Made by a program: the position numbers and the translations under genes
Assembly: GCF_040529065.1 (NCBI RefSeq)
Contig: NZ_CP132343.1
Location: 1,798,001 to 1,862,000, forward strand
Length of the DNA stretch: 64,000 bases
Origin: Xanthomonas sacchari
GTDB lineage: Bacteria; Pseudomonadota; Gammaproteobacteria; Xanthomonadales; Xanthomonadaceae
Direction: 5' to 3'
Notes under the pieces: model-generated
Databases searched by the model: none
Told to the model about the DNA's origin: nothing
Seen by the model: only the letters and a program-made list of their open reading frames with translations
Shown here: positions 7,900-32,404 of the stretch, in pieces
How the letters are laid out: each line of letters opens with the position of its first letter
How positions within the stretch are numbered: the first letter of the stretch is position 1

Positions 7900-7925
7900 C
7901 CGGCCGCGTGTGTGTGTGCGTGTGC

Positions 7926-8010
7926 GTAGGAGCGGCGCTTGTCCCCTTTGTTGTGATTGGTTGTGACAGACGTTATCGGGAACGCCCGTCGCGGCTTAAG
8001 CCGCTCCTAC
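7926..8010. repeat. GTAGGAGCGGC inverted-repeat element
   Basis: GTAGGAGCGGC at 7926-7936 is matched by its exact reverse complement GCCGCTCCTAC at 8000-8010. Just inside the right arm lies a 14-base palindrome GCGGCTTAAGCCGC (7991-8004). It lies in the 150-base gap between the permease and the S9 peptidase. Elements with these ends are familiar dispersed intergenic repeats in Xanthomonas. Transcribed, it could form a long stem that acts as a terminator for the permease mRNA; that role is inferred. Confidence 0.7.
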
Positions 8011-8047
8011 GGAAACCAAGCACGTCATGAAATTTTTTGGAAACCGC

Positions 8048-11443: not shown

Positions 11444-11485
11444 TGCGGTTTTCCGCATCCATCCTCGGCACAGCGCACAAGACGC
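11444..11485 (+). promoter_or_regulatory. Bipartite island motif, site A
   Basis: TGCGGTTTTCCGCA (a TGCGG/CCGCA palindrome, 11444-11457) is followed after exactly 19 bases by ACAAGACGC (11477-11485). It lies 52 bases before the ATG of the Tat-exported protein. The same layout recurs at sites B, C and D. A third, weaker element CACGATGCGACG begins 16 bases further on. Its role as an operator or promoter of a shared regulon is inferred from the repetition. Confidence 0.7.
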
Positions 11486-11537
11486 TGCGGCGCGCGCAGC
11501 GCACGATGCGACGATCGCATTGCATCGGGGACGGTAG

Positions 11538-13904
11538 ATGGATCGGAGAGATTTCCTGCGGCAGGGCCTGGCCGTTGGCGCGGTTGCCGGCGTGGAAGCG
11601 CTGGCCGGGCGTGCCGCCGCGGCACCCATAGCGGCCAGCGCCGCGCGTGCGCCTGCGCCGCCGCAACTGCAGCCGCTGGCGGCCGACGCGCTGGCCGGGC
11701 ATACCCTGCAATGCCGTTTCGTCGAGGCCGGCGCGACCTGGGAGGTGTACGAAGACCTGCGCCAGCCCGACGGCGATCTGACCCTGCGCGGGCCGGGTGG
11801 GGCGTTGGTGCTGGGCAAGCGCACCGAAGCGGTGTTCCCGGCGGCGCAGGCGCCGTATTTCGGCATGGCCCTGGCCGAGGTGGCGATGGCCGATGCCGAC
11901 CTGCTCGCCGACCGCCTGCTGCGCGACGGCGATCCGCGCGCCGACGAGGTGCGCGACGTGGCGCCGCCGCCGGCCTCGCAACTGGATCCCAAGGACTACA
12001 ACGGGCGCCTGCCGTGGACCACCTTCGTCGGTACCCGCGAATGCGCCGACACCATGCCGGTGTACCCGGACGGGCGCACCCGCTGCTACCGCGCGATCCA
12101 GGCGTTCCCGGAACTGGGCAAGGACGAACTGGTGCGGCGCCGCAGCGAAGGCCTGCTCGGCGGCTGGATGCCGGCGGTGCGCAAGGTGGTGCCGGCCGGC
12201 GAGGGCCGCTACTACGACATCCTGCTGTTCGCCGACGTGCTGGCCGAGGATCGCTTCGTGGTGCAGACCTGGCACCGCAGTGCGCTGGTCGAGCACGGCA
12301 AGGTCAGCAAGGTGGTGTACGGCTACAGCTATCCCGACTACCCGCCGCGGCGCGGCCCGCGCAGCGCCGAGGATTTCTACCGCGGCCTGCTCGCCTTCGC
12401 CGGCTACTGGCAGGCGCAGCTCGCCGACACCGTGCAGGCGCAGACTCCGGATGCGAGCTGGCGCGACATGGCGCGCTTCGCCTTCGCCCGCGAACTGGTG
12501 GTGCGCCCGGGCGGAACCTATCCCAAGTACGGCGCGGTGGACCGCGACTACTACGGCAACGAGTACGATGGTTTCCAGGACACCTTCACCAGTTCGCTGT
12601 ACGCCAACCTGGAGTGGGGCCGCTTCGCCCAGGCCGCGGCGGTGCTGGACGGGTATTTCAGCGATTTCGTGCAGGCCGATGGCATGGTCAACATGCGCGG
12701 CCCGGAGACCGGGCAGTTCGGGCTGACCCTGTCGCTGCTGGCGCGCTACCTGCGCTACACCGGCGATGCCGCGCTGCTGCGCAAGCACCGCGACAAGATC
12801 GCCGCCACCGCGCAGGTGCTGGTCGAACTGCACGATGCCAGCCTGCGCCTGCCGGCATCGGCACCGGGGCATGGCCTGCTCCACGGCTGGAACGAATCCG
12901 ATGCCTGCCTGTTCCCCGATCCGCAGGTGTGGTGGAAGCCGTACTACGCCAACAGCGCGCTGACGGTGCGCGGCTGGCAGGACCTGGCGGCGGTGTGGAG
13001 CGACATCGCCGGGCCGGGCGGGCAGGCCGCCGCGGCGCAATGGCAGCGCCGTGCGCAGCAACTCTCTGCGCAGCTGCTGCGCACGCTGCGTGGCAACATC
13101 CGCCGCGATCTGCAGCCGCCTTACATCGGCCCGCTGCCGGGGGTGAAGCTGACGTTCCGCCAGTCGCTGCAGCAGGAGCATCCCAGCGAGCAGGGCTGGC
13201 CGCACCGCGCCTATGCCGAACTGCTGCAGGCCGACGTGCTGCCCGACGACCTGGCGCACCTGGTCATCGACTGCGTACGCGGCCACGGCGGCACCAGCCT
13301 CGGTGTGGTCGGCAACATCACCGCGCCGACCCCGGAGGCGCGCGACCTGCTCGGCTTCATCTCCTACGGCTACGCGCAGCAGTTGCTGCGCCTGGACCGG
13401 ATCGAGGAATACCTGCTGTTCCTGTACGCGCACCGCTTCCACGTGCATACCCGCGGCAGCTGGACCGCGGGCGAGGTCAGCGGCATCACCGGCGGCATGC
13501 CGCTGTTCTGCATCCCGGCGCAGCTGACCATTCCGCTGCTGCTGCGCTGGATGCTGGTGTTCGAGGACAGCACCGGCGAGGAACTGTTCCTGGCGCGGGC
13601 GGTGCCGCGCGACTGGCTGGGCAGCGGCGAGACGATCGCGATCGACGCGGCGCCGACGCGCTGGGGCAGGGTGTCGCTGGCGCTGCACGCGGATCCGGCG
13701 CGCAAGCGCATCGACGGCAGCGTGACGCTGCCGGCGCAGCGGCCGGCACGCACCTGGCTGACCCTGCGCGTGCCGGCCGGCACTCGCCTGCAGGAAGTGC
13801 GGCTGGACGGGCAGCCGGCGGTGCTGTCCGGGCCGCACAACGAGCGCGTACTGGTGCCGGCCGGCAGCGCGGCGACGGTGGCGATTTCGGCCGTCTACGG
13901 CTGA
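11538..13904 (+). CDS. Tat-exported (alpha/alpha)6-barrel-like putative glycosidase, family unassigned
   Basis: A 788-residue protein whose N-terminus MDRRDFLRQGLAVGAVAG is a textbook twin-arginine signal (RRDFLRQ), so it is exported folded to the periplasm. GGGGACGG at 11527-11534 precedes the ATG. I cannot place it in a named family. Residues about 300-660 have the look of a six-hairpin glycosidase: alternating aromatic-rich helices, FQDTFTSSLYANLEWGRF, a likely acidic pair in LLHGWNESDACLF, and AGEVSGITGGMPLFC. The C-terminal 120 residues look like a beta-sandwich, as in GH78/GH127-type enzymes. It carries the same upstream motif as the other island genes, so a role in arabinose- or galactose-containing glycan breakdown is inferred. 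Confidence 0.65.
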   Translation: MDRRDFLRQGLAVGAVAGVEALAGRAAAAPIAASAARAPAPPQLQPLAADALAGHTLQCRFVEAGATWEVYEDLRQPDGDLTLRGPGGALVLGKRTEAVFPAAQAPYFGMALAEVAMADADLLADRLLRDGDPRADEVRDVAPPPASQLDPKDYNGRLPWTTFVGTRECADTMPVYPDGRTRCYRAIQAFPELGKDELVRRRSEGLLGGWMPAVRKVVPAGEGRYYDILLFADVLAEDRFVVQTWHRSALVEHGKVSKVVYGYSYPDYPPRRGPRSAEDFYRGLLAFAGYWQAQLADTVQAQTPDASWRDMARFAFARELVVRPGGTYPKYGAVDRDYYGNEYDGFQDTFTSSLYANLEWGRFAQAAAVLDGYFSDFVQADGMVNMRGPETGQFGLTLSLLARYLRYTGDAALLRKHRDKIAATAQVLVELHDASLRLPASAPGHGLLHGWNESDACLFPDPQVWWKPYYANSALTVRGWQDLAAVWSDIAGPGGQAAAAQWQRRAQQLSAQLLRTLRGNIRRDLQPPYIGPLPGVKLTFRQSLQQEHPSEQGWPHRAYAELLQADVLPDDLAHLVIDCVRGHGGTSLGVVGNITAPTPEARDLLGFISYGYAQQLLRLDRIEEYLLFLYAHRFHVHTRGSWTAGEVSGITGGMPLFCIPAQLTIPLLLRWMLVFEDSTGEELFLARAVPRDWLGSGETIAIDAAPTRWGRVSLALHADPARKRIDGSVTLPAQRPARTWLTLRVPAGTRLQEVRLDGQPAVLSGPHNERVLVPAGSAATVAISAVYG

Positions 13905-14236
13905 GTGGCGAAAAAGTCGGAAACGTCCCGCCGGCCCGCGGGGCAGTGCGGTATTCCGCACGTTTTCCCGATAAATACGACAAGACGCCGCGCGCGTCCT
14001 ACGCGCACATTGTGACCGTGCAGTGAATGTCCAGGGGGAGATTCGTTGCACGTCACCGGGGACGCAGCGCATGGGTCGTGCGCGTCGCCGTGCAGGCGGC
14101 GTCGGGATCGTCCCGTCCGGCGGCGCATGCGTGGACACGTCCGTTTTCGTATCCGCCACACGCGCTGGCGACGGGGCCCCGCCTGGGGAAGGGCGGCGCT
14201 CCGACGAACGCCAGGCTGCCGCTCAGGAGATTTCCG
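13905..14236 (+). promoter_or_regulatory. Leader region of TonB receptor 1 (332 bases)
   Basis: No convincing gene is seen here. It contains site B of the bipartite motif at its 5' side, then about 248 bases before the receptor ATG. A CACATTGTGACC element at 14006-14017 has close counterparts downstream of sites C and D. If transcription starts near site B, the mRNA has an unusually long 5' leader. The receptor frame happens to be open through the leader from ATG 14027, but that stretch is Arg/Pro-rich and has no signal-peptide character. Confidence 0.5.
13947..13988 (+). promoter_or_regulatory. Bipartite island motif, site B
   Basis: TGCGGTATTCCGCA (13947-13960) is followed after exactly 19 bases by ACAAGACGC (13980-13988). 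The first box is a perfect TGCGG-N4-CCGCA inverted repeat, as at site A. It lies 43 bases after the stop of the Tat-exported protein and upstream of the receptor / GH121 / GH43 operon, which suggests that this operon has its own promoter. Confidence 0.75.
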
Positions 14237-17065
14237 ATGCCGTCTTTGCTCGAACGCGTTGCGCCGCTGCTCCCGTGTTCCTGGCGCGCCGCGCCGCAGC
14301 CCGGTCCGCTGGCCGCGGCCATCTGCACCGCCCTGGCCCTGCTCGCGCCGGCAGCGCAGGCGCAGGAGGCGCAGACCCAGGACACCCAGGCGACCACCCT
14401 GGAACGGATCAGCGTCACAGGCAGCCACCTGCGCCGCGTCGATGCGGAGACCGCCAGCCCGGTCATCACCATCGACCGCCAGCGCATCGAGGACAGCGGC
14501 CAGGACACCCTCGGCCAGCTGCTGCAGCAACTGCCGGCGATGGCCGGCAACATGCCCAACGTCTCGCTCAATTCCGGCTTCAGCCATGGCCGCGCGCTGG
14601 TGTCGCTGCGCAACCTCGGCCCCGAGCGCACCCTGGTGCTGGTCAACGGCCACCGCATGGCCGGGCCGGCCAGCAGTGTCTCGGCCGCGCCCGGCGTGGA
14701 CGTCAACGCGATTCCGGCGGCGATGGTCGAGCGCATCGAGGTGCTCACCGACGGCGCCTCGTCGGTGTACGGCTCCGACGCCATAGCCGGCGTGGTCAAC
14801 ATCATCCTCAAGGACAAGTACGATGGCTTCGCCGCCACCGCCGACTACGGCCTGAGCACGCACGGCGACGGCAACCGCCGCTCGCTCGGGCTGGAGTGGG
14901 GCAAGACCTGGGAGCGCGGCGGGCTGATCCTCGGCGTGAGCCGCAGCTCGATGAACGCGCTGTACGACAGCGATCGCGACTACGCGCGCACCGCGCAGAA
15001 CTACCTCAACGGCCAGGTGGTCGAGCGCCGCGGCAACGGCACCCGCGCCTTCCTCAGCAACGGCAGCGTGCTGACCCCCAATGCCGACCTGCCGCCGGGC
15101 CAGGTCACCGCCAGCGACTTCCACACCTACAGCCAGGCGGTGGAAGGCTACAACTCCTACACCGGGCAGTACCTGATCACCCCGGTGCAGCGCACCAACG
15201 CCTCGGCGCACGCCAGTTTCGACTTCACCCCGAACGTGCAGGGCTACCTGGACATGTTCTGGACCCGCAGCGAGACCACCTCGCAGCTCACCGCCTACGG
15301 CCTGGAACTGCCCAACGCCGCGCAGAACTACTACAACCCCTTCGGCAGCCAGCTCAGCCGCTACCTGCTGCGCTCGGTGCCGGCCAACACCCGCGTCTAC
15401 ACCTCGACGATGTACCAGACCAACATCGTCGCCGGGTTGCGCGGCAAGTTCGGCGACAGCAGCTGGCAATGGGACGCGGCGGCCGGCTACGCGCACTACA
15501 AGGACACCCTGGTGCGCAACGGCTTCTCCATCACCTCGGCACTGAACAACGCGGTCGGCGCCTCGTTCCGCGACACCGACGGCACCATCAAGTGCGGCAC
15601 GCCCGGCAACGTCATCGCCGGCTGTACCCCGATCAACGTGTTCAACCCGGACGATCCGGCCACCATCGCCGCGATCAAGGCCACCCAGAGCGCGGTCGAC
15701 CTGATCGACGAGAGCACGATGAAATTCGCCGAGGCCAGCGTCAACGGCGACCTGTTCGCGATGCCGGCCGGTGCGGTGCAGGCGGCGTTCGGCCTGTCGT
15801 TCCGCAAGAACGGCTTCTCGCAGGGCACCAGCAACCCGGTGGCGGCGGCCGATGCGGAAGGCAACTGCGACTACAACGACGGTTGCATCATGAACCAGGG
15901 CCACGACGAAACCATCAAGGAGGCCTACGCCGAAGTGCTGGTGCCGCTGCTCAAGGGCGTGACCGGCGCGCAGGCGCTGAACCTCAACCTGGGCACGCGC
16001 TACTCGCGCTACGACTACTGGGGCAGCACCACCAACAGCAAGGTGGCGCTGGAATGGCGGCCGATCGACAACCTGCTGATCCGCGCCACCGGCTCGCAGG
16101 TGTTCCGCGCGCCCGCGCTGGGCGATCTGTACGGCTCGCCGTTCAACGGCGTGGTCGACGACGCCGGGACCTACACCGATCCGTGCAACGGCTACACCGG
16201 CGGCGGCAACCCCGCGGCCTGCGCCAACGTGCCGACCAACGGCAGCTTCGTCAACAGCTCGTCCTTCACCGTGCTCACCACCGGCTCGGCCAACGCGGGC
16301 TTCGCGATCAAGCCCGAGCAGGGCCGCTCCTACAACATCGGCGCGGTGTACGACCCGGGCTGGGCCGAGGGCCTGTCGTTGAATCTGGACAGCTGGCGCG
16401 TCACCCTGGACGACATGATCAACGGCACCGGCCTGGATCAGGTGCTGCAGAACTGCTACGACGGCCAGAGCGCCTATTGCCCGCTGATCAAGCGCGGCCC
16501 CACCGGCCAACTGGTCAGCGTCACCGTGCCGTTCGCGATCAACAGCGGCAAGGTCGACATCCGCGGCGACGACGTCGGCATCAAGTACGCCTTGCCGGAG
16601 ACGGCCTGGGGCCGCTTCCGCGCCGGCGTCGATGCCACCTACCTGTCCAGCTACAAGTTCAGCGGCGATCCGCACAACTACGTGGGCGAACAATCCAGCT
16701 ACGGCAACATGCCGCGCTGGCGCGCCAACTTCACGCTCGACTGGGACAACGGCCCCTGGCACGCGAGCTGGAACACGCGCCTGATCGGGCGCACCACCGT
16801 CGGCAGCGCCTACGAGGACTTCTGCGTCAACACCGCCGCCGACGGCAGTTGCGTGTACTTCCCGGTCGGCGCGGTGACTTATCACGACGCCAGCGTGAGC
16901 CGGAAGTTCGAGAGCCTGCATACCACCCTGGCGCTGGGCGTGAACAACCTCGGCAATCGCACGCCGCCGCGCTACTACGGCTATGCCAGCGCGGCCAACA
17001 CCGATGCGTTCACCTACGACACGCTGGGGCGCTACTTCTGGGCACGGATCAGGACCGAGTTTTGA
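14237..17065 (+). CDS. TonB-dependent outer-membrane receptor 1
   Basis: A 942-residue protein from ATG 14237, preceded by CAGGAGA at 14223-14229. The signal peptide is long (about 43 residues ending APAAQAQ). A plug domain follows (about 60-190, with SVTGSHLRRVD, LVLVNGHRMAG and VERIEVLTDGASSVYGSDAIAG), then a 22-strand-type beta-barrel ending in the terminal aromatic YFWARIRTEF. Such receptors import ligands with TonB-ExbBD energy. No N-terminal signalling domain or linked sigma/anti-sigma pair is seen. It is a paralogue of the receptor at 28.5 kb, sharing CNGYTGG and AACANVPT loops. The next gene begins within six bases, so it is co-transcribed with the GH121-like and GH43 enzymes; arabino-oligosaccharide or glycopeptide import is inferred. 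Confidence 0.93.
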   Translation: MPSLLERVAPLLPCSWRAAPQPGPLAAAICTALALLAPAAQAQEAQTQDTQATTLERISVTGSHLRRVDAETASPVITIDRQRIEDSGQDTLGQLLQQLPAMAGNMPNVSLNSGFSHGRALVSLRNLGPERTLVLVNGHRMAGPASSVSAAPGVDVNAIPAAMVERIEVLTDGASSVYGSDAIAGVVNIILKDKYDGFAATADYGLSTHGDGNRRSLGLEWGKTWERGGLILGVSRSSMNALYDSDRDYARTAQNYLNGQVVERRGNGTRAFLSNGSVLTPNADLPPGQVTASDFHTYSQAVEGYNSYTGQYLITPVQRTNASAHASFDFTPNVQGYLDMFWTRSETTSQLTAYGLELPNAAQNYYNPFGSQLSRYLLRSVPANTRVYTSTMYQTNIVAGLRGKFGDSSWQWDAAAGYAHYKDTLVRNGFSITSALNNAVGASFRDTDGTIKCGTPGNVIAGCTPINVFNPDDPATIAAIKATQSAVDLIDESTMKFAEASVNGDLFAMPAGAVQAAFGLSFRKNGFSQGTSNPVAAADAEGNCDYNDGCIMNQGHDETIKEAYAEVLVPLLKGVTGAQALNLNLGTRYSRYDYWGSTTNSKVALEWRPIDNLLIRATGSQVFRAPALGDLYGSPFNGVVDDAGTYTDPCNGYTGGGNPAACANVPTNGSFVNSSSFTVLTTGSANAGFAIKPEQGRSYNIGAVYDPGWAEGLSLNLDSWRVTLDDMINGTGLDQVLQNCYDGQSAYCPLIKRGPTGQLVSVTVPFAINSGKVDIRGDDVGIKYALPETAWGRFRAGVDATYLSSYKFSGDPHNYVGEQSSYGNMPRWRANFTLDWDNGPWHASWNTRLIGRTTVGSAYEDFCVNTAADGSCVYFPVGAVTYHDASVSRKFESLHTTLALGVNNLGNRTPPRYYGYASAANTDAFTYDTLGRYFWARIRTEF

Positions 17066-17070
17066 GTCGC

Positions 17071-20000
17071 ATGCCTGTCCCCGGTGGCGCCGCATCGCGC
17101 GTGCGGCGCGGCGCTGCCGTTCTCCTGGGGGGGCTGCTGTGCGTCGCTGCCGCGGTGGCGGCGGCGGCCAACGCTGGCGATCGGTTGGACCGCGATGGCG
17201 AAGGCCTGCAGCCCAGCAATGCCGCGATCGGGATGCCGCGCTTCAGCGGCGATGCGCAGCCGCTGCCGGACAGCGGCGTGGCGTTCGCGCCGGGGCAGGC
17301 GCAGGGCCAGTTGCAGCGCGTGTTCGCCGCCGACCTGGCGGCGGGTGCCGGCCGCGCGCCCGGCCGTGATTTCTGGATCGACCGCCTGCTGGCGCGGCAG
17401 GGCACCGGCGGCGGCTTCGGCGACAGCAACAACTGGCTGTTCACCCGCGGCCGTGCCACCTACCTGTACACGCACAAGCCGGAGGAGCCCGGCTTCGTCG
17501 GCGACGTGGCCTACGTGCACAAGACCGGCCACGACGCGCTGTTCCGCCTGCAACTGGAGCGCGACGGCGTGCCGATCGCGCTGGTCGAGGACAGTGCGCA
17601 GCGGCGGCAGACGCCGAGCTATTTCAGCAGCGTGTACGCAGGCGGCGGCGTGCGCCTGCAACTGGTCAAGTTCATCAGCGAGCAGAACGTGGCGGTGGCC
17701 GAGCTCACCGTGTCCAGCACTGACGGCGCGGCGCATGCGCTGACCGTGCGCGCGGTCTCGCCGATGGCTACGCATCCCGACGGTGCCGAGCTGACTGGCG
17801 CCTTCGTCACCCACAACGCCATCACCACGCTGTTCCCGCGGCTCTCCGGCGACGGCTTCGCGGTCGATGGCGCAAGCATCGCGCGGCCGCTGGCGGTGCC
17901 GGCGCACGGTGCCGCGCCGACGCTGAAGGTGCAACTGGGGCTGATCGCGCGCGAACTGCCGGCCGCACAGCAGGAATACCGGCGCATCGCCGCGCAGTCG
18001 CCGCAGCAGGCCTACCGCGACCACGTCGTCGCCTACAACCGCTGGTGGGCCGACAACCTGCCGTACCTGGACACGCCCGAGGACAATCTCGACAAGACCC
18101 TGTTCTACCGCTGGTGGTTGTTGCGCTTCAATTTCCTGGACGCGGCGGTACCCGGCAACGACTACCAGTTCCCGGTGGCGATCGAAGGCGTGCTCGGCTA
18201 CGACAACGCCATCGTGCTCACCACCGGCATGTTCATCGACGACCTCAAGTACCTGCGCGATCCGCTCTACGCCTACGGCTCCTGGCTCGGCGCCGGCGAG
18301 ACCGCCGGCGGCGGCAAATACGTGGACAATCCCGGCGCGCCGGAGAACTGGTCCAATTCCTACGCGCAGTACCTCAGCGCTGCCGCCTGGCGCGCCTACC
18401 AGGTGCACGGCGGGCCGCCGGCGATCGCCGGGCAACTGGCGCGCTACGCCAGCGACGACGTGGACGCGCTGCTGCGTGCCTACGACCACAATGGCAACGG
18501 CCTGATCGAATACGACTGGGCGGCGATGACCGGCAACGACGCCGACGCGGTGTCCTTCGACTGGGCCAAGCGGCATGGCGCGCCGCGCATGGATCGCAGC
18601 GAGAGCGCGTACGTGTACGCCAATGCGCTGGCCGCCGCGCAGGCCGCGCAGTTGGCCGGCGATGCCGCCACGGCCACGCGCATGCAGGCGCTGGCGACGA
18701 AGATCCGCCGCGCTGTGCTGGACGTGCTGTGGCAGGACCACAGTGCACAGGCCGACGGCATGGGCCTGCACGGCGACCTGCTCAAGCAGCGCCAGGCCGA
18801 CGGGCCGCGCCTGCCGGTGGACTGGAAGGAAACCAACAATTACTACCCCTTCAGCGTCGGCCTGATGCCCAAGCACGGCGATGCCGACGACGACCCCAAG
18901 TACGTGCGCGCGCTGCGCCTGTTCGCCGATGCGCGGCAGTTCCCGCTGTTTCCGTTCTATACCGCCAACCAGACCGATGCGCAGGCGCGCGGCGCCGGCG
19001 GCAGCAACAATTTTTCGGTGATCAATTCCACCGTGGCGTTCCGCCTGCTCGGCAGCGTGTTGCGCGACTACCCGAGCCCGTACCTGGATGCGTCCAGCTA
19101 CCGCAAGCTGCTGTACTGGAACGCGTGGGCGCACTACATCGACGGCGACAACCGCTACCCGGACCAGAACGAATTCTGGGCGCAGGGCAGCGCCGCCGAT
19201 GGCGGCCACATCGGCTATCGCTCGTGGATCCACCACACCCAGCTCGGCGCCACCAACTTCACCGTGATCGAGGATGCGATGGGCCTGCGCCCGCGCAGCG
19301 ATGCCCTGATCGAGCTGTATCCCATCGACATCGGCTGGGACCATTTCGCCGCCGACCGCCTGCGCTATCGCGATCGCGACCTGAGCATCGTCTGGGATCG
19401 CGACGGCCGCCGCTACGGCGGAGCGGCGCCAAAGGGCTATTCGCTGTACCTGGACGGCCACCTGGCCTTCACCGTCGACCGCCTGGCGCACGTGCTGTAC
19501 GACCCGGCCAGCGGCCGCGTGCAGGCCTTGCCGGATGTGGTCAATGCCGGTGCCGCGCAGATGCAGGTGCTGGCCGCGCATCGGCTGGCGCTGCAGGCGC
19601 CGCAGCAGGTGCGGTTTCCAGGCCAGGCGCGGATCGGTGCGGTACTCGCCGATGCCGGGCTCGACATCGCGCTGCCGCACGGCGCGCGCAATCTGGCGCA
19701 GGGTGCGGCGGTCAGCGCGAGCTATGCGGTCGACGGATTTCCGGCCACGGCCGCGGTCGACGGCAGCACCTCCAACGAGCCGTTCTGGGGCACCGCCGGT
19801 TCGAGCAGCAGCAGCGATTGGCTGGAACTGGATCTGCAGCGCCCGCAGACCCTGGACGACGTGCGCGTGTACTTCTATCGCAGTTCCTCGCCGCCCGGCG
19901 AACAGCATGGTTTCCCGTCGGGCACGCGCGCGGGCTACGCGCCGCCGTGGCTGTACGTGCTGCAGTACTTCGACGCCGGCGTGTGGAAGACCGTGCCGGG

Positions 20001-21411: not shown

Positions 21412-23003
21412 GTCGCCAGCCGTTGCGCAGAGCCGCTGTGTGTCTGTTGCTGGCATGCGTTGGCTGCATCGGCCTGGTCGCGGCTGCCGCACCGGCAGTG
21501 CCGCGGTCGCGGCAGGTGCAGGCGCCGGGCAATCCGATCCTGGCCGACGGCCGCGACTATGCGGCCGATCCGGCGCCGCTGGTCGCCGACGGCAAGCTCT
21601 ACATCATCGCCGGCCGCGACGAGGCGCCGCCGGAGCTCAACGACTTCGTCATGGACCGCTGGCAACTGCTGGTCACCGACGACGTCGGCAGCGGTCGCTG
21701 GACCTATTACCCGGCACTGCTGCGTCCGCAGCAGGTGTTCGCCTGGGCCGCGCCCGGGCATGCCTACGGCGCGCAGATCGTGCAGGGCCCGGACCGGCGT
21801 TACTACCTGTATGCGCCGGTGCAGGAAGCGCAGTCGCGCAATGCCGACCCGTTCGCGATCGGCGTGGCGGTGGCCGACAGCCCCGTGGGGCCGTGGCGCG
21901 ACGCGCATCCGCAGGGACCGATCCTGTCGCAATCGCTGCCGACGCCCAACGCCATCCAGAACATCGACCCGACCGTGCTGGTCGACGACGACGGGCGCGT
22001 GTACGTGTACTGGGGCACCTTCGGCAAGCTGTTCGGCATCGAACTGGAACGCGACATGGTGACGCCGAAGGGGCAGCCGGTGGCGGTGACCACGCTGGAC
22101 GGCTACTTCGAGGCGCCGTGGCTGTTCAAGCGCAACGGTACCTACTACATGGCCTACGCCGGCAACCATGCCGGTCCGGATTCGGACTGCACGCCGACGC
22201 TGTACCACGCGTGCCTCGCCTACGGCAGCGCGCCGTCGCCGCTGGGGCCATGGACCTACCGCGGCGTGATTCTGCCGCCGGTGTCCTCGACCACCTCGCA
22301 CTCGGGCATCGTGCAGTTCAAGGGACAGTGGTACCTGGTCTATCACACCGCCGACGCCAAGGGCGGCGGGCATTTCCGCCGCAGCGTGGCGATCGACCGA
22401 TTGCAGTGGGACGACACCCGGCAGCCGGCGCGGATCCTGCCGGTGGTGGCCACGCGGCGGCCGCAACCGCCGCTGCCGCCGCAGCGCAACCTCGCCCGCT
22501 ATGCGCAGGCCAGCGCGTCCAATGGCCCGGACATCCCGCACCAGTACTGGATCGCCGCGCTCAACGACGGCCGGGTCAAGCGCAATCCGTTGCCGCCGCA
22601 GCTATGGGGCAGTTGGACGCCGCACAACCCACCGCAGCAATGGCTGCAGTACAGCTGGGCGCAACCGGTGACGCTGCAGGGCAGTCGCATCCTGTTCTGG
22701 GCCGATCATCCGCCGGGCGCGGACAGCGGCGTGGCGCCGCCGGCGCGCTGGCGGCTGGAGTACCGTCGCGACGGCCGCTGGTGGCCGCTGGCAGAAAGTG
22801 CGCGCGCACCCGTCGCCGGCCGCTGGCAGACGCTGCGCTTCACGCCGGTGACCACGCGCTGCGTGCGCGCGGTGCTGGACGCCGCCGGCGGCGGCGAGCG
22901 CTACGCGGCGCTGGCGGTGCAGGAGTGGGAGATGCTGGCGCCGCAGGCGCAGCGCCTGCCGCAGGCCACCGCGGCGGATGCGCAGCGCTGCGACACGCCT
23001 TGA
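21408..23003 (+). CDS. GH43 family glycosidase with C-terminal discoidin-like module (HypAA-like)
   Basis: A 531-residue protein with an N-terminal signal peptide (RRAAVCLLLACVGCIGLVAAAA). The five-bladed propeller of GH43 covers about 35-345. The expected catalytic residues are visible: base Asp in RDYAADPAPLV, pKa-modulating Asp in NIDPTVLVDDDG and acid Glu in YFEAPWLFKRNG. Residues about 360-510 form a discoidin-like module that is clearly related to the second such module of the preceding gene (ALNDG, WGSW, FW..D.P, RFTPV and EW blocks). GH43 enzymes are arabinofuranosidases, arabinanases or xylosidases. With a GH121-like partner in the same operon, removal of the terminal alpha-1,3-arabinose from Ara4-Hyp, as HypAA does, is the leading hypothesis. 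It starts inside the upstream stop (ATGA). Confidence 0.85.
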   Translation: MSRQPLRRAAVCLLLACVGCIGLVAAAAPAVPRSRQVQAPGNPILADGRDYAADPAPLVADGKLYIIAGRDEAPPELNDFVMDRWQLLVTDDVGSGRWTYYPALLRPQQVFAWAAPGHAYGAQIVQGPDRRYYLYAPVQEAQSRNADPFAIGVAVADSPVGPWRDAHPQGPILSQSLPTPNAIQNIDPTVLVDDDGRVYVYWGTFGKLFGIELERDMVTPKGQPVAVTTLDGYFEAPWLFKRNGTYYMAYAGNHAGPDSDCTPTLYHACLAYGSAPSPLGPWTYRGVILPPVSSTTSHSGIVQFKGQWYLVYHTADAKGGGHFRRSVAIDRLQWDDTRQPARILPVVATRRPQPPLPPQRNLARYAQASASNGPDIPHQYWIAALNDGRVKRNPLPPQLWGSWTPHNPPQQWLQYSWAQPVTLQGSRILFWADHPPGADSGVAPPARWRLEYRRDGRWWPLAESARAPVAGRWQTLRFTPVTTRCVRAVLDAAGGGERYAALAVQEWEMLAPQAQRLPQATAADAQRCDTP

Positions 23004-23388
23004 GGCGAAGCGGGGATGCCGATTGCGCCAACTTCGCCGACCTTCGCATGCGTTCCAGTGGCGAGCCCGCTGCAGACATCGGCCGCAGTTGCCGGCCGCA
23101 TCATGTTCCTGTCGTGACGTCAGTTTGATTTTCGCAATGTGTGCGGAATTAGCCCGATTCCGTGGGGATAACCGTAAGGTGGATTGCGTTTCACTGCATT
23201 AGTCTGCCCACGGGCTAGCGATATGCGCGTGGCTGACGCCGCTGTTGTCGGCGTTGCGCCGGCCGCGTTCCTCTACCGGCATGCCATCGGGGTGATGGCG
23301 GATCATCCATCAAGGCACGCTGTTGCAGCGCATCGCGTGTCGCTCGCCCAACTCATCCACTGTCATCGAACAAGAGGAGTGTGGAGCC
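23004..23388 (+). promoter_or_regulatory. Upstream region of the Svx/AvrXca-like gene (385 bases)
   Basis: No gene is seen. A six-base inverted repeat CGGAAT-N7-ATTCCG lies at 23144-23162, and TGCGGAAT at 23142 is the reverse complement of the first box of the island motif, but no ACAAGACGC follows at 19 bases. One TTCGC occurs, but without a partner 15 bases away, so no PIP box is called. The operon upstream ends at 23003 and the next GTG is at 23389, so an independent promoter for the metalloprotease is likely. Confidence 0.4.
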
Positions 23389-25239
23389 GTGAAAATTGCT
23401 GCTTCTCGATTCGTGCGTCTGGTGTCCACGGTGTGCCTGTCGGCCGTTTTGGCGCTGGCTGCGCAGTATGCGCATGCGGCGGCTGCGGCCGCATGCACCG
23501 CCGGCCAATGGATCGCCAATCCCGACGACACCGACATGCCGGCCGTTCGCTACGAAACCCAGCACTTCGCGTTCCGCTGGAAGGACGGACAAGCGGTTTC
23601 GCAGGACGACGTGACGTCCGCAGCCAAGGAGCTGGAGCTGATCTGGGACGACTACATGAGGCGCGTCGGGTTTCCCGAGCCGTATTGCAATACGGCAACG
23701 AAGTACAAGGTCAGCGTCTACCTGGACCACAGCTTCGGCCTGAACGGCGGTACCTCCGCCAGCGGCGGCATGGGCATGTGGATCAATCCGGACCAGTTGG
23801 GCTATCACTGGGGCCTGGCGCATGAATTGACCCATGGCTTGCAGGGCAGCACCGGCGGCTTGCGCGACTCGCCGTACGTCGGCTGGATCTGGGAATCGCA
23901 TGCCAACTGGATGGCGCATCAGTATTTCCACGACGACGTGCAGTGCTCGGAGATGTTGGTGAATTACCCGTATCTCTATCTTGGCTCGACCCGCGACCGC
24001 TACTGCAACTGGCAGTTCATGGAGTACCTCAAGGATCGTTTCGGTTACGCGATCATCAACGATCTGTGGGCCAAGGCGCCCAAGCCCGGCGATTCGCGCC
24101 AGGCCGATGCCGATCCGTTCTCGATCATTCGCGACAACATGGGCTGGAGCCAGTCGCAGCTCAACGACGTGCTCGGCGACTGGGCCATGCACAACGTGCA
24201 GTGGGACTACACCGACCCGGACGGCCGCGACCATGGCGCCGTGATGCGCCAGCAATACGGCAGCAATACCGCGTTCGATCCGGAAAACCTGGCCGATGAG
24301 ACCAATCGCGATCGCGCACTGCGCCTGACCCAGCTGGATCCGGTGCAGGGCCAGACAGGCGTCTACCGAGTGCCGTTCGACTGGGCGCCGCAGCGTTGGG
24401 GCTACAACCTGGTCCGGCTGATTCCCGCGCAGGGCGCCGAGGCGGTCGTGGTGCGATTCCATGGCGACGTGCAGCAGGCGTCGGCGGTCGACACCTTGCC
24501 TGGGCTGGCGAACGATCCTGATCGCATCGGCGCGCCGGACTCGGATTGGCGCTGGGGCCTGGTCGCGATCGATGCCAACGGCAAGCCGCGCTACAGCGCG
24601 CTGCAGCAAGGCGCCGAGGCCGCGCTGTCGTTCCAGCTCCGCAGCGGCGACAGCGACCTGTATCTGGTGGTGATGGGGACGCCGAGCAAGATGCAGAAGA
24701 TCAAGTGGGATCAGTCCTACTATTCGGTCTACCGCTACCCGTGGAGCGTCACGTTGGAGAACGCGTATCCGTCGGGCCAGCAGCCCGGGGCGCCGACGCC
24801 GACGCGCGTGGGCGGCCGTCACCCCAACGGCGGTGGCTGGGTCGCCCAGAACGCGTACGTCGCGTCGACGGCCTATGTCGGCCCGCATGCGCGGGTGCTG
24901 GGGGGCAAGGTGCTGGGCGATGCGCGCATCGAGGATCATGCGACGATCCTGGGCGGGCAGGTGCAGGACGGCGCCGTGGTCGGCGGGTTGAGCCTGCTGC
25001 AGGACGGGGTGACGGTGAAGGATCGCGCCCAGTTGCATACGGTGTTCAAGCCGGCGGGGGCGTTCGGCGGGTTCACGCTGTCCGGCTCCGCGCAGTTGCG
25101 TGGCGACGTCGAGCAGCGCGGCGCGTCGGCCAGCAAGGGCGTGTTCTATGGATACGTCGATGCGGATACGGTGACCAACCCCGACTATGGCGCCGACCTG
25201 ACCGACGCGGTGCCAGAGGTCACGGCGAAGCCGCAATGA
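23389..25239 (+). CDS. Svx/AvrXca-type secreted zinc metalloprotease with beta-helix tail
   Basis: A 616-residue protein from GTG 23389, chosen for GAGGAG at 23374-23379 and because it opens a clean signal peptide ending QYAHA. The catalytic domain carries HELTH at 145-149 and a probable third zinc ligand Glu169 in WIWESHA, a gluzincin-like layout. Residues about 480-570 form a left-handed beta-helix of hexapeptide-type repeats (AYVGPHARVLGGKVLGDARIE). This resembles Svx of Pectobacterium and AvrXca of Xanthomonas, proteins secreted through the type II system and linked to virulence or avirulence. That identity is recalled knowledge, not a search result. Its position inside a plant-glycoprotein island suggests a protease acting on cell-wall proteins outside the cell. 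Confidence 0.75.
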   Translation: MKIAASRFVRLVSTVCLSAVLALAAQYAHAAAAAACTAGQWIANPDDTDMPAVRYETQHFAFRWKDGQAVSQDDVTSAAKELELIWDDYMRRVGFPEPYCNTATKYKVSVYLDHSFGLNGGTSASGGMGMWINPDQLGYHWGLAHELTHGLQGSTGGLRDSPYVGWIWESHANWMAHQYFHDDVQCSEMLVNYPYLYLGSTRDRYCNWQFMEYLKDRFGYAIINDLWAKAPKPGDSRQADADPFSIIRDNMGWSQSQLNDVLGDWAMHNVQWDYTDPDGRDHGAVMRQQYGSNTAFDPENLADETNRDRALRLTQLDPVQGQTGVYRVPFDWAPQRWGYNLVRLIPAQGAEAVVVRFHGDVQQASAVDTLPGLANDPDRIGAPDSDWRWGLVAIDANGKPRYSALQQGAEAALSFQLRSGDSDLYLVVMGTPSKMQKIKWDQSYYSVYRYPWSVTLENAYPSGQQPGAPTPTRVGGRHPNGGGWVAQNAYVASTAYVGPHARVLGGKVLGDARIEDHATILGGQVQDGAVVGGLSLLQDGVTVKDRAQLHTVFKPAGAFGGFTLSGSAQLRGDVEQRGASASKGVFYGYVDADTVTNPDYGADLTDAVPEVTAKPQ

Positions 25240-25383
25240 TCGACCGGCAATGACTGCCAGGCGGTGTCGTGGCGGATGCACGGTGCATCCGCTGCGACAC
25301 TGCCGCAGTTTCCCTGCGCCGTTCGCGTTCGCAGGCGCTGCCCGCAGGGCGTGGTCGCCTGCGGCAGGCGATGCGGGTGATTC

Positions 25384-25425
25384 GGCAGAAATCCGCATCT
25401 GCACGCATCAGTGGGGACAAGACGC
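25384..25425 (+). promoter_or_regulatory. Bipartite island motif, site C
   Basis: GGCAGAAATCCGCA (25384-25397; right half ATCCGCA conserved, left half degenerate) is followed after exactly 19 bases by ACAAGACGC (25417-25425). A perfect inverted repeat TGTCA-N6-TGACA (25428-25443) follows at once and runs into CAGTGACC. The site precedes the small ORF and GH127/GH146 gene. Confidence 0.65.
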
Positions 25426-25513
25426 GCTGTCACCCGGATGACACAGTGACCATGGATCCGCTGGTCGTTGCCCTGCGGCGTCGGCGTCCCGACATCTCAC
25501 ACAGGAGCAGTCC

Positions 25514-25570
25514 ATGCCTCGATGCGTTTCTTTCCCGCATGCCGCCTCGCACGCGGGAGGCCGGCGATGA
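25514..25570 (+). CDS. 18-codon upstream ORF coupled to the arabinofuranosidase gene
   Basis: ATG 25514 is preceded by CAGGAG (25502-25507) at ideal spacing, and encodes MPRCVSFPHAASHAGGRR. Its TGA (25568-25570) overlaps the ATG of the downstream enzyme as ATGA, and the Shine-Dalgarno of that enzyme lies inside this ORF. It may be a leader peptide or a translational-coupling device. No database family is known to me, and chance occurrence cannot be excluded for an ORF this short. Confidence 0.4.
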   Translation: MPRCVSFPHAASHAGGRR

Positions 25571-27981
25571 GCGGGCAGGGCATGCATCGGCATGGCACCG
25601 CCTGCGCGCACGCTGCTGCCGACGCGGCTGGGGCCGCGCTGGATCCTTCGCGGCGCCGCTTCCTGCAATGGAGCGCACTGGCGGTGGCCGCCGGGCTGCT
25701 GCGCTTCCCGCTGGACGCCGCCGCGTCCACGCCCGGGCGGGTGCAGGCGCTGCCCCTGCAGCAGGTCACGCTGAAACCCTCGCTGTTCCTGGACTCGCTG
25801 CAGACCAACCGCCGCTACCTGCTGGAACTGGAGCCGGACCGTCTGCTGCACAACTTCCTGCAGTACGCCGGCCTACCGCCGAAGGGCGCGGTGTACGGCG
25901 GCTGGGAGGGCGACACCATCGCCGGCCACACGCTGGGCCACTACCTCAGCGCACTGGCGAAGATGCATGCGCAGACCCGCGACCCGGTGCTGCGCGAACG
26001 CATCGACTACATCGTCGCCGAGCTGGCGCGTGCACAGGCGCAGGATCCCGATGGCTACGTCGGCGGTTTCACCCGCAAGAACGACAAGGGCGAGATCGAG
26101 GGCGGCAAGGCGGTGCTGGAGGATGTGCGCCGCGGCATCATCAAGGGCAGCAAGTTCAACCTCAACGGCAGCTGGTCGCCGCTGTACACCCAGCACAAGC
26201 TGTTCGCCGGCCTGCTCGACGCGCATGCGTTGGCCGGCAGCAAGCAGGCGCTCGAGGTGCTCCTGCCGCTGGCCGCCTACACCGCCGGCGTTTTCGATGC
26301 ACTCGATCACGCGCAGATGCAGACCCTGCTGGACACCGAGTTCGGCGGGCTCAACGAGTCCTACATCGAACTGGGCGCGCGCACCGGCGATGCGCGCTGG
26401 GTCGCCATCGGCAAGCGCCTGCGCCACGAAAAGGTGATCGACCCGGCCGCGGCCGGGCGCGACGAACTGCCGCACATCCACGCCAACACCCAGGTGCCCA
26501 AGTTCATCGGCGAGGCGCGCCAGTTCGAGGTCGCCGGCGATGCCGATGCGGCCGCGGCGGCACGGTTCTTCTGGGAGACGGTCACCGCGCACTACAGCTA
26601 TGTCATCGGCGGCAATGCCGACCGCGAGTATTTCCAGGAGCCGGATACCATCGCCGCGTTCCTGACCGAGCAGACCTGCGAGCATTGCAACAGCTACAAC
26701 ATGCTCAAGCTGACCCGGCACCTGTACCAGTGGACGCCGCAGGCGCGGTACTTCGACTACTACGAGCGCACGCTGCACAACCACACCATGGCCGCGCAGC
26801 ATCCGGCCACAGGCATGTTCACCTACATGACGCCGATGATCAGCGGCGGCGAGCGCGGTTTCTCCGACAAGTTCGATTCGTTCTGGTGCTGCGTCGGCAG
26901 CGGCATGGAAGCGCACGCGCAGTTCGGCGATGCGATCTACTGGCAGGATGCCACCTCGCTGTACGTCAATCTCTACATTCCCTCGCGGCTGGATTGGACC
27001 GAGCGCGATCTGGCGCTGGAACTGGACAGCGGCGTGCCCGACAACGGCAAGGTGCGTTTGCAGGTGCTGCGCGCCGGGCAACGCGCGCCGCGGCGCCTGC
27101 TGTTGCGGGTGCCGGCCTGGTGCCAGGGCCGCTACGCGCTGCGCGTGAACGGCAGCCCCGCACGGGCAGCGCTGGTTGATGGCTACCTGACGCTGGAGCG
27201 CGACTGGCGCGCCGGCGACGTGATCGACCTGGACCTGGCCACGCCGCTGCGGCTGGAACACGCCGCCGGCGACGCGGACACGGTGGTGGTGATGCGCGGG
27301 CCGCTGGCGCTGGCCGCCGACCTCGGGCCCGTGAGTACACCCTACGACGCGCCGGACCCGGCGCTGGTGGCCGCGGCCGATCCGCTACGCGGCTTCGCCG
27401 AACTGCCGCAGCCCGGCCATTTCCTGGCCAGCAGCACGCAGCCGCCGGGGCTGACCTTCGTGCCGTTCTACGCGCAGTACGAGCGCCGCAGTGCGCTGTA
27501 TTTCAAGCGCATGGGCCCGACCCAGTGGGCGCAGGAATCCCAGCGGCGGGCGCGCCGCCAGGCCGAGCAGGACAAGCTGCGTGCGATCGCGGTGGACATG
27601 ATCCAGTTCGGCGACGAAGCCTCCGAGCAGGCCCACCAGTTGCGCAGCGACACCTCCTTCGGCGGCGCCTACCGCCGCCAGCAGTGCCGCGACGTGCGCG
27701 GCAAGGGCTTCGTCGAGTTCCGCATGCGCGGCAGCGCGCAGCCGCTGGTGCTGCGGCTGCGCTTCTGGGGCAGCGACAAGGGCCGCTTCAACATCCTGAT
27801 CAACGGCAAGCTGGCGGTGGAAGTGGCGGTGGAGCGCGGCCAGGTGATCGATTTCGTCGACCGCGACTACCCGTTGCCGCCGGAACTGACGCGCGATGCG
27901 CAGCCGCTGACCGTGCGCATCGAGCCGCAGCACGGCGACACCGCCGGCCCGTTGTTCGGCGGCTGGCTGATCCCGGCGTGA
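25567..27981 (+). CDS. Beta-L-arabinofuranosidase, GH127/GH146 (HypBA1-like), Tat-exported
   Basis: An 804-residue protein. ATG 25567 is chosen because GGGAGG (25555-25560) sits six bases before it; a TTG at 25468 is in frame but weaker. A twin-arginine signal (SRRRFLQWSALAVAAG, about 28-45) exports it. The DUF1680 catalytic (alpha/alpha)6 barrel covers about 60-480 and holds the zinc-thiolate residues Cys371 and Cys374 (TCEHCNSYN) and Cys441-Cys442 (FWCCVGSG), with Cys442 equivalent to the cysteine nucleophile known for HypBA1. Beta-sandwich domains (DUF4986- and DUF6805-like) complete it; its length is closer to GH146 than to the shorter GH127 prototype. It removes beta-1,2-linked L-arabinofuranose, as found on extensin hydroxyproline. 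Confidence 0.9.
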   Translation: MSGQGMHRHGTACAHAAADAAGAALDPSRRRFLQWSALAVAAGLLRFPLDAAASTPGRVQALPLQQVTLKPSLFLDSLQTNRRYLLELEPDRLLHNFLQYAGLPPKGAVYGGWEGDTIAGHTLGHYLSALAKMHAQTRDPVLRERIDYIVAELARAQAQDPDGYVGGFTRKNDKGEIEGGKAVLEDVRRGIIKGSKFNLNGSWSPLYTQHKLFAGLLDAHALAGSKQALEVLLPLAAYTAGVFDALDHAQMQTLLDTEFGGLNESYIELGARTGDARWVAIGKRLRHEKVIDPAAAGRDELPHIHANTQVPKFIGEARQFEVAGDADAAAAARFFWETVTAHYSYVIGGNADREYFQEPDTIAAFLTEQTCEHCNSYNMLKLTRHLYQWTPQARYFDYYERTLHNHTMAAQHPATGMFTYMTPMISGGERGFSDKFDSFWCCVGSGMEAHAQFGDAIYWQDATSLYVNLYIPSRLDWTERDLALELDSGVPDNGKVRLQVLRAGQRAPRRLLLRVPAWCQGRYALRVNGSPARAALVDGYLTLERDWRAGDVIDLDLATPLRLEHAAGDADTVVVMRGPLALAADLGPVSTPYDAPDPALVAAADPLRGFAELPQPGHFLASSTQPPGLTFVPFYAQYERRSALYFKRMGPTQWAQESQRRARRQAEQDKLRAIAVDMIQFGDEASEQAHQLRSDTSFGGAYRRQQCRDVRGKGFVEFRMRGSAQPLVLRLRFWGSDKGRFNILINGKLAVEVAVERGQVIDFVDRDYPLPPELTRDAQPLTVRIEPQHGDTAGPLFGGWLIPA

Positions 27982-28475
27982 CCGCAACAGCGGCATCGCC
28001 GCGCGCAGCGATGGCAGTGTGTGCCTGCCGTGTCGTGTCTGCGCGACACACAACGCCATGCCTCGCCACGAGCGCCGCATGCAGGCGCGCAGCCACGCAC
28101 GACCATGCATGATTCCGCATGCGAAACCGCGAATCGCGACAAGACGCGGGCGTGCGCACACGGCACAGTGTGACCGCGTGATGAAAATCTGATCGCATCG
28201 TCGTACCGGCCGTGGCGCCGGCGCGCGCCACCGGAGCGCCGCCATCGTCGTCGGACGTCATCGTAGGAGCGGGGAGCCGCGCACGGCCGTGCGCGCAGGA
28301 AATCGGCCTCCCCGTTGTGCGCCAGGCCGTCGTGGTCCGGTGCAGGCACGCCACCGCAGGCGCCGCGCAGGCGCCACCGTCCAGCAGGTCCGTCCGTCGG
28401 CATGGCGCCGGCATGGCGTCGTTCGGCCTGCGTTTTTTCGCTGTTTCGTCTCGCCACCTTCCAGGAGCCCGCCCC
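27982..28475 (+). promoter_or_regulatory. Leader region of TonB receptor 2 (494 bases)
   Basis: No convincing gene is seen. GTGTCG-N8-CGACAC at 28030-28049 is a possible terminator hairpin for the arabinofuranosidase mRNA. Site D of the bipartite motif follows at 28106-28147, CACAGTGTGACC at 28164-28175, and then about 300 bases of GC-rich leader before the receptor ATG. The long leader parallels that of receptor 1. Confidence 0.5.
28106..28147 (+). promoter_or_regulatory. Bipartite island motif, site D
   Basis: TGCATGATTCCGCA (28106-28119) is followed after exactly 19 bases by ACAAGACGC (28139-28147). It precedes TonB receptor 2 and its GH43 partner by about 328 bases. The downstream CACAGTGTGACC starts 16 bases after the second box, almost as at site B (17 bases). 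Confidence 0.75.
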
Positions 28476-31354: not shown

Positions 31355-32404
31355 GTGCCTTCCGGCAGTCCGACCCAGGACGTTGCAGCGCCCGTCGCAG
31401 GCGGGCGTCTGCGCCAGCGCAGCGTGATGTGGGGCTGCGCACTGCTGCTGGCGGCCCCATGCATGGCGGCTGCCGGTGCCGGGCAGATCCGCCCCGGGGC
31501 GGTGTGGAACGATCGCCAGGGCGTTGCCATCAACGCCCATGGCGCCGGCGTGCTGCGCGACCGCGACGGCACCTACTACTGGTTCGGCGAATACAAGACG
31601 GCCGGCGCGGGCGGCAATACCGCCCAGGTGGGCGTGTCGGTGTATCGGTCGCGCGACCTGTTGCATTGGGACAACCGCGGCATCGCGCTGCAGGTAGCCG
31701 ATGACCGGCAGTCCGATATCGCCAAGGGGGCCGTGATCGAGCGTCCGAAGGTGCTGTACAACGCAGCCACCGGCCGCTACGTGATGTGGTTCCACCTGGA
31801 GCGGCCAGGGCAGGGCTACAAGGATGCACGGGTCGGGGTCGCGATGGCCGAGCGGGTGGACGGGCCGTACCGCTACCTGCGTTCGTTCCGGCCCAATGGC
31901 CAGGAGTCGCGCGACATGACCCTGTTCCAGGACGACGACGGCAGCGCTTACCTGTTCTACAGCTCCGAAGGCAACGCGACGATGCATGTCACCCGCTTGC
32001 GTTCGGATTACCTGGATACCGAACCGACTTTCGCGCGCATTTTCGTCGAGCGCTGGCTGGAGGCGCCGGCGGTGTTCAAGCAGGCGGGGCGCTACTACTT
32101 CCTTGGTTCCGAATGCACCGGCTGGAAGCCCAATACCGCGCATGGCGCCACCGCGCCGTCACCGACCGGGCCGTGGACCGAGTTCGGCAATCCGGCCCGT
32201 GGCGAGGACGCTGCGCTGACCTTCCACAGCCAGAGCGCCTATGTGCTGCCATGGCCGGGAAGGCCAGGGCATTTCATCTATCTCGGCGACCGCTGGAATC
32301 CCGGCAATCCCATCGATGGGCGCTATGTCTGGTTGCCGTTGACGCTGGATGGCCAGGGCTTCCGGATCGATTGGCGCGATGCCTGGTCGCCTGCGCGGCA
32401 CTGA
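31355..32404 (+). CDS. GH43_24-like galactan 1,3-beta-galactosidase, secreted
   Basis: A 349-residue protein starting at GTG 31355, two bases after the receptor stop; ATG 31427 is an alternative giving a shorter signal peptide (MWGCALLLAAPCMAAAG). The five-bladed propeller begins with INAHGAGVLRDRDGTYYWFGEYK, a signature of subfamily GH43_24, whose members release galactose from the beta-1,3-galactan backbone of arabinogalactan proteins. Subfamily landmarks are present: Asp in SRDMTLF (pKa modulator), Glu in LEAPAVF (acid) and Gln in FHSQSAYV. The usual GH43 base Asp at the first blade is absent, as is typical of this subfamily. Family-level confidence is high; the subfamily rests on motif memory. 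Confidence 0.8.
   Translation: MPSGSPTQDVAAPVAGGRLRQRSVMWGCALLLAAPCMAAAGAGQIRPGAVWNDRQGVAINAHGAGVLRDRDGTYYWFGEYKTAGAGGNTAQVGVSVYRSRDLLHWDNRGIALQVADDRQSDIAKGAVIERPKVLYNAATGRYVMWFHLERPGQGYKDARVGVAMAERVDGPYRYLRSFRPNGQESRDMTLFQDDDGSAYLFYSSEGNATMHVTRLRSDYLDTEPTFARIFVERWLEAPAVFKQAGRYYFLGSECTGWKPNTAHGATAPSPTGPWTEFGNPARGEDAALTFHSQSAYVLPWPGRPGHFIYLGDRWNPGNPIDGRYVWLPLTLDGQGFRIDWRDAWSPARH

Follow-up and report, generated by a model that had tools for sequence, protein, structure and literature searches.

The 64,000-nucleotide stretch of the Xanthomonas sacchari contig NZ_CP132343.1 analysed here (positions 1,798,001 to 1,862,000, hereafter the window) carries an island of glycoside hydrolase (GH) and TonB-dependent receptor genes with a bipartite motif, WTCCGCA-N19-ACAAGACGC, upstream of four of them. 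A pattern search of the window finds the motif with 0 mismatches at 11451-11485 (site A), 13954-13988 (site B), 25391-25425 (site C) and 28113-28147 (site D), all on the plus strand. An earlier reading of this DNA from the letters alone (the sequence-only reading) had placed the sites at these positions; the ends agree and its starts lie 7 bases earlier, as the left arm of the first box was included. Its description of the motif, with TTCCGCA (ATCCGCA at site C), 19 bases and an identical second box on the plus strand, is exact at the four sites, as is the palindrome TGCGG-N4-CCGCA at A (11444-11457) and B (13947-13960). The left arm is degenerate at site C (GGCAGAA) and site D (TGCATGA). The motif features are as follows:

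11444..11457, plus strand: site A box 1, palindrome TGCGGTTTTCCGCA, proposed activator operator (pattern search; kept in the genus and in other genera)
11477..11485, plus strand: site A box 2, ACAAGACGC, at the -35 position (pattern search and -10 spacing test)
11502..11507, plus strand: site A predicted -10 element CACGAT, 17 bp past ACAAGACG (sequence and spacing test)
13947..13960, plus strand: site B box 1, palindrome TGCGGTATTCCGCA (pattern search)
13980..13988, plus strand: site B box 2, ACAAGACGC (pattern search)
14006..14011, plus strand: site B predicted -10 element CACATT, 18 bp past ACAAGACG (sequence and spacing test)
25391..25397, plus strand: site C box 1, ATCCGCA, with the degenerate left arm at 25384-25390 (pattern search)
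25417..25425, plus strand: site C box 2, ACAAGACGC (pattern search)
25442..25447, plus strand: site C predicted -10 element CACAGT (sequence and spacing test)
28113..28119, plus strand: site D box 1, TTCCGCA, with the left arm at 28106-28112 (pattern search)
28139..28147, plus strand: site D box 2, ACAAGACGC (pattern search)
28164..28169, plus strand: site D predicted -10 element CACAGT (sequence and spacing test)

The gaps between the motif and the likely start codon are 52 nt at A, 248 nt at B, 96 nt at C and 328 nt at D, the two long stretches (13989-14236 and 28148-28475) being those in front of the TonB receptor genes. Pairwise identity among the four 19-bp spacers is 5 to 8 of 19 positions; the spacers are unlike each other, and the sites are therefore not recent copies of one promoter. 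The island contains these genes:

11538..13904, plus strand: gene A, with a Tat-like (twin-arginine translocation) N-terminus, without recognised family (NCBIfam, Pfam and PDB searches)
14237..17065, plus strand: TonB-dependent receptor 1 (Pfam; start codon chosen from the listed starts)
17071..21411, plus strand: GH121-type beta-L-arabinobiosidase (HypBA2-like), close behind TonB receptor 1 (NCBIfam NF041578)
21408..23003, plus strand: GH43 (HypAA-like), overlapping the GH121 gene (Pfam)
23323..25239, plus strand: Svx/AvrXca-family protein, DUF6055 (NF040510, 1106 bits, cut-off 625)
25522..27981, plus strand: GH127 beta-L-arabinofuranosidase, start codon uncertain (Pfam PF07944)
28476..31352, plus strand: TonB-dependent receptor 2 (Pfam)
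31424..32404, plus strand: GH43 behind TonB receptor 2, start codon uncertain (Pfam on 31337-32404)

The GH121-type gene scores 1122 bits against the HypBA2 model NF041578, under its curated cut-off of 3200. With its GH121, GH43 and GH127 homologues, TonB receptors and Svx-family protein, the island seems to encode a pathway that acts on hydroxyproline (Hyp)-rich glycoproteins. Homologues of the three GH enzymes are described from X. euvesicatoria as degrading arabino-oligosaccharides on hydroxyproline-rich glycoproteins (PMC6085000), and for Svx of Pectobacterium, a gluzincin peptidase by its description, extensin-type substrates are considered possible (PMC9266454). Gene A (11538-13904), which has the best-scoring site of the regulon and is about 70% identical in Dyella, obtains 0 NCBIfam matches, 0 PDB sequence matches and in Pfam a sub-threshold TAT_signal only; it is a candidate for a new enzyme family. 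A structure prediction of its product from 6 sequences had a mean pLDDT (predicted local distance difference test score) of 47.9 and was left unused.

Specificity and conservation of the motif

The whole genome of X. sacchari (4,957,212 bases) contains four exact matches to the motif, and about 0.003 per genome are expected from base composition, so that the repetition is, as the sequence-only reading had put it, hard to ascribe to chance. No match with one mismatch is present, and five have two mismatches, compared to two for the reversed control pattern. Shortened by its last C, the motif gains one extra match in the genome, on the other strand and with at most one mismatch. When 3 mismatches are allowed, 4 of 100 window shuffles also reach four matches, which makes this weak evidence, whereas exact matching is strong. 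A matrix trained solely on other genera (72 sequences) was used to scan 97.5 kb of the X. sacchari genome, made up of the window and 33.5 kb of preceding sequence. Five hits score between 44.8 and 33.3 and correspond, in descending order, to A, D, B, a fifth site before the window (L253:13664) and C; the sixth hit reaches only 14.0, and the reversed sequence yields none above the cut-off of 6.

All 20 genomes examined from the genus possess the motif with at most one mismatch, in total 77 matches against 1 control match. In each genome the matches lie on one contig, in one cluster within about 25 kb, and a profile model run on the 20 genomes places all listed hits with an expectation value (E) below 0.004 at this locus. 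The motif is thus not scattered at random. It is also kept before orthologous genes across several genera, Dyella included: in other genera sites precede orthologues of gene A, TonB receptor 1, TonB receptor 2 and GH127, as well as further TonB-receptor-like genes. A scan of the whole collection with the exact pattern returned at least 118 stretches; among the matches listed, most are in unrelated bacteria and were regarded as chance matches. The analysis was continued with ten records, each of which has the motif upstream of at least one such gene: X. albilineans, X. floridensis, X. euvesicatoria, X. vasicola, X. bonasiae, X. prunicola, X. arboricola, Pseudoxanthomonas wuyuanensis and two records of Dyella. 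Specificity and conservation together support the proposal of the sequence-only reading that the motif is probably the operator or promoter of a dedicated regulon.

One further site (L241) is located behind a GH43 gene; 275 bp past it a TonB-receptor-like gene begins. Elsewhere in the genus, other species (L070, L072, L074, L076, L082, L095, L097, L101) possess extra site types of the form TTCC[AG][CT][AG]TCAAA...ACAAGACG[CT], which may mark extra regulon members, and a site with a like spacer end (L234) precedes a third TonB-receptor-like gene. An 8-kb stretch of Prosthecobacter (L214) combines the pattern with a 32%-identical gene of the PAS-AraC type treated below; there the pattern falls at the end of a different open reading frame, 1.9 kb from that gene, and the case was set aside as coincidence.

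Predicted promoter layout

For the analysis of the flanking sequence, 137 locus matches with at most two mismatches were collected, and 7 of them (two mismatches, inside genes or off promoters) were removed by hand. The resulting 130 sites (128 after removal of identical stretches) became 183 with 53 hydroxyproline promoters, and thinning at 60% identity of spacer plus downstream sequence left 56, of which 38 are glycan-side and 18 hydroxyproline-side. Sites were picked by their box match, and the conservation of the boxes is therefore partly due to selection. The left arm, the -10 element and its spacing played no part in choosing the glycan-side sites; for the hydroxyproline promoters the selection pattern included the left arm and box 2 at N19-20.

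A hexamer NANNNT starts 17 or 18 bp past box 2 in 55 of the 56 thinned sites (37 of the 38 on the glycan side), whereas 2000 shuffles give 3.4 on average and never more than 11. TGC is present at the left arm in 33 of the 38 glycan-side sites. Box 2 is assigned to the -35 position because the -10 element follows it by this distance; an A at position 2 and a T at position 6 of the -10 element, 17 +/- 1 bp from the -35 element, are the features of a sigma-70-type promoter. The match to a -35 element (AAGACG) is weak and thus suits activator dependence. As predicted from these elements, the layout is that of an activator-dependent promoter with box 1 centred near -63. Box 1 (TGCNNANTTCCGCA at best, about -70 to -57) would be the operator of the activator, and box 2 (consensus RCWAGWCG, here ACAAGACG) is probably a -35 element, a proximal activator half-site, or both.

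A fixed distance between two boxes in front of TonB receptor genes would also fit the -35/-10 pair of an alternative sigma factor of the extracytoplasmic function (ECF) or FecI type. In ECF sigma promoters -35 and -10 elements are separated by a spacer of 16-17 bp. The boxes described here are 19 bp apart and are followed by a separate -10 element, the third element NANNNT occupies in nearly all thinned sites the place that it has in sigma-70-type promoters, and box 1 is palindromic at A, B and at the epimerase promoter described below; a sigma factor pair is accordingly quite improbable. Since the two TonB receptor genes have long leaders, the motif might instead be an RNA element within the leader of the mRNA. 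With both boxes placed upstream of the predicted -10 element, however, an RNA element is scarcely credible, and an Rfam search of window positions 11000-34000 gave no match.

The hydroxyproline locus and its candidate regulator

The fifth site is situated outside the window, about 5 kb before its start and about 17 kb before site A, between two divergent genes. The features of this region and of the adjoining part of the window are:

L253:12862-13530, minus strand: PAS-AraC regulator gene (PAS_4 and the helix-turn-helix (HTH) domains HTH_18/HTH_AraC)
L253:13727 onwards, divergent from the regulator: 4-hydroxyproline epimerase gene (NF010577)
1..10360 of the window, plus strand: end of a semialdehyde dehydrogenase-like gene, an M24 peptidase, two DUF885 proteins, an amino-acid permease and a dipeptidyl peptidase IV (DPP IV)-like peptidase, likely the downstream part of a Hyp/peptide catabolism run

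The epimerase scores 445.8 bits against NF010577, just over the cut-off of 442. The genes behind it, on the same strand, match proteins of other genera, and their run reaches the window start; we take them to be FAD-type proteins, a DapA-like protein and the semialdehyde dehydrogenase-like protein. Judged by orientation, the genes at 1..10360 likely form one run with Hyp catabolism.

The fifth site consists of TGCGAACTTCCGCA, 19 bases and the box-2 variant GCTAGCCG. The epimerase promoter shows the same array of box 1, N19, box 2, 17-18 bp and -10 element as the four sites of the window, and since this architecture recurs with a variant box 2, the regulon is larger than four units. If RCWAGNCG is accepted as box 2, only A, B, D and the epimerase promoter match without mismatch anywhere in the genome. 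Site C follows at one mismatch, solely from its first base A, and the other nine hits each have one mismatch, with 12 for the control.

Among relatives, a palindrome of at least 10/12 positions occurs in the regulator-epimerase region of all 30 close loci (20 from the genus of the window, 10 from another). In 20 distant loci, with regulators 57-74% identical, it is found at 11 of the 14 that have the epimerase beside the regulator and at 1 of the 6 where no epimerase was found beside it. In aligned regulator-epimerase cases, box 1 is followed by N19 and then CTAG or CTAT. Two Dyella genomes have TTCCGCA-N19-TCTAGACG as epimerase promoter and the window-type motif before their glycan genes; TCTAGACG is intermediate and thus joins the two forms of box 2. 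PAS-AraC paralogues of 57-59% identity also occur without neighbouring epimerase and without palindrome (L312-L315), and many genomes possess two such genes.

Combining PAS and AraC HTH domains, adjoining 4-hydroxyproline catabolism genes and sharing a conserved intergenic site with them, the regulator has the features of the LhpR type. According to the literature, the lhp genes of Pseudomonas aeruginosa are activated by LhpR, an AraC-family protein that binds L-Hyp (PMC6608401) and contains a PAS domain (PMC8694187), and the regulator here is therefore of the same build. On this genomic pattern, the protein that acts on the boxes is most probably the PAS-AraC protein divergent from the epimerase.

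Of 390 family genomes, 62 encode the regulator at 78% identity or more, and every one of them contains a minimum of two motif matches. Among the 328 genomes left, this minimum is reached in 17, and in 2 of these 17 a pair of matches lies on the same strand within 30 kb. One of these two genomes, G261, possesses a 72% identical regulator and has one site at the start of a TonB-receptor-like gene. At least one match occurs in 157 of 395 family genomes, many single matches probably by chance, since the control columns also hold matches. These per-genome tallies were made by eye, and G390-G394 are included in the motif count and lie outside the regulator search. The genera are unevenly represented, and regulator and motif belong to one locus; the co-occurrence therefore supports the link and does not prove it.

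Several observations weigh against the regulator assignment and the regulon as drawn. Two genera supply 54 of the 62 regulator-bearing genomes, and regulator and motif, as physical neighbours, could occur together because the locus is inherited as a whole. The epimerase promoter and the glycan promoters do not have the same box 2 (GCTAGCCG and ACAAGACG, respectively). In a profile model (R1), the epimerase site of X. sacchari itself is weak (E 0.086), and two unrelated places in the genome score better. The palindrome alone was dropped as a genome-wide probe as nonspecific, with 169 matches at up to one mismatch in the X. sacchari genome and 135 for the control. Three of the 14 distant epimerase loci remain under 10/12, L311 with a 9/12 form in place and L299 and L300 with none in place. 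The Svx-family gene, although inside the island, has no motif upstream (no matrix hit there in the 97.5-kb scan), and some GH127 or GH43 genes are likewise without their own site. Regulator homologues of beta-proteobacteria (48-52% identity, in 4 of 12 further genomes, 500 bp upstream read) seem to keep only part of the array, a pattern that is suggestive only: L379, beside an epimerase, has TGCAGATTTCGTCA, 19 bp and GCAAGACA, L382 has TGCCGATTTGAGCC and about 20 bp on TCAAGACC, and L380 and L381 lack TTCCGCA, TGCGGAA, CTAG and TTCCNCA in these 500 bp. Finally, the PAS domain of PA1261 is grouped under autoinducers in PMC8694187, which does not point to hydroxyproline binding by PAS.

The unlike forms of box 2 and the possible joint inheritance are also what would be expected if another, unlinked transcription factor bound the boxes and the PAS-AraC gene were a mere neighbour. 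Against such a factor, box 1 is found in the regulator's own intergenic region even at 63-74% regulator identity and is missing at 5 of the 6 loci without neighbouring epimerase, and box 2 of Dyella is intermediate; we regard an unlinked factor as unlikely. In the reading that we prefer, with a probability of about 0.8, the PAS-AraC regulator binds at the four sites, these are sigma-70-type promoters that depend on an activator, and wall-glycoprotein breakdown would thereby be coupled with Hyp catabolism. The sequence itself shows the sites and how they are conserved, the spacing of the -10 element, the fifth site and the regulator gene next to it; from these we infer binding, activation and the inducer. 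The genes would form one regulon for the use of plant hydroxyproline-rich glycoproteins such as extensins, under an LhpR-type activator at box 1 that is presumably switched on by hydroxyproline, or a derivative, freed from wall protein. Deglycosylation, uptake by TonB receptors and hydroxyproline catabolism could thereby be coupled in a positive loop.

Relation to described systems

The LhpR regulon of P. aeruginosa (PA1261) was reportedly characterised by Li and Lu in 2016. As in that regulon, a PAS-containing AraC-family regulator is found at hydroxyproline catabolism genes; unlike there, as far as LhpR is known from descriptions, the same box here also precedes arabinosidase and TonB receptor genes. 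One Pseudomonas genome (behind L198) possesses no homologue of the regulator at E <= 1e-30.

A second comparison is with HrpX, which is itself an AraC-type activator and acts on the bipartite plant-inducible promoter (PIP) box. The hypBA2-hypAA operon of X. euvesicatoria is described as having a PIP box and as HrpX-dependent (PMC6085000), and its enzymes are homologous to those of the window, so that the motif might be a diverged PIP box. Its sequence and spacing, however, differ from TTCGB-N15-TTCGB. The window holds a single PIP-like match, inside the Svx-family gene (1.0 expected by chance), and none before genes, the GH121 gene included. In the X. euvesicatoria genome (record L121) PIP box and motif occupy different promoters of the locus: a PIP box lies before GH121 (L377:5760), and the motif (L377:14723) before TonB receptor 2, with the GH127 gene starting 145 bp behind the receptor. 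A diverged PIP box is thus highly improbable. X. vasicola also has a PIP box before GH121 (L136:1265). The GH121 gene of the window being without one, HrpX control has been gained or lost at this operon.

The GH43 frame of X. euvesicatoria (528 aa) and the GH127 frame (791 aa) have the lengths given for XCV2728 and XCV2724/XeHypBA1, respectively. By order and size the GH127 gene would be xehypBA1, and by its position it would be transcribed from the motif promoter. The gene xehypBA1 is described as induced in infected plants and as having no PIP-like sequence (PMC6085000), and an activator of the motif, if true, would explain this in-planta induction without a PIP box.

Hydroxyproline use is likewise controlled in the HypR regulons of the GntR family (PMC5343134, PMC6608401). 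These are described with a GntR repressor, unlike the PAS-AraC protein here, and the Streptomyces motif CTNTGC(A/C)ATGTCAC is of another form. The hypBA1-hypBA2-hypAA cluster of Bifidobacterium longum contains homologous enzymes for Hyp-linked arabino-oligosaccharides and, according to its descriptions, an ABC importer (PMC6085000, PMC7263609), in contrast to the TonB receptors of the window. No earlier description of such a box was found in titles and abstract starts of the open-access literature.

For the way in which these plant-associated bacteria switch on the digestion of extensin-like wall protein, the analysis offers a conserved DNA site together with candidates for the regulator and the signal, and amino-acid catabolism and glycan use are joined under one proposed regulator. 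A wider scheme, to which we give even odds, is a dedicated sensor for plant wall glycoproteins in Xanthomonadales: one PAS-AraC activator would sense Hyp or a Hyp arabinoside and govern a regulon of extracellular deglycosylation, TonB uptake, peptidases and Hyp catabolism. The box would be ancestral at the hydroxyproline promoter and would have arisen again, with unrelated spacers, before the glycan genes, while in the X. euvesicatoria group HrpX would be an additional regulator of the GH121-GH43 operon.

Downstream of the island, a large protein encoded at 33722-38047 resembles an RHS-repeat protein by eye, and another RHS-like frame follows at 38641-39648.

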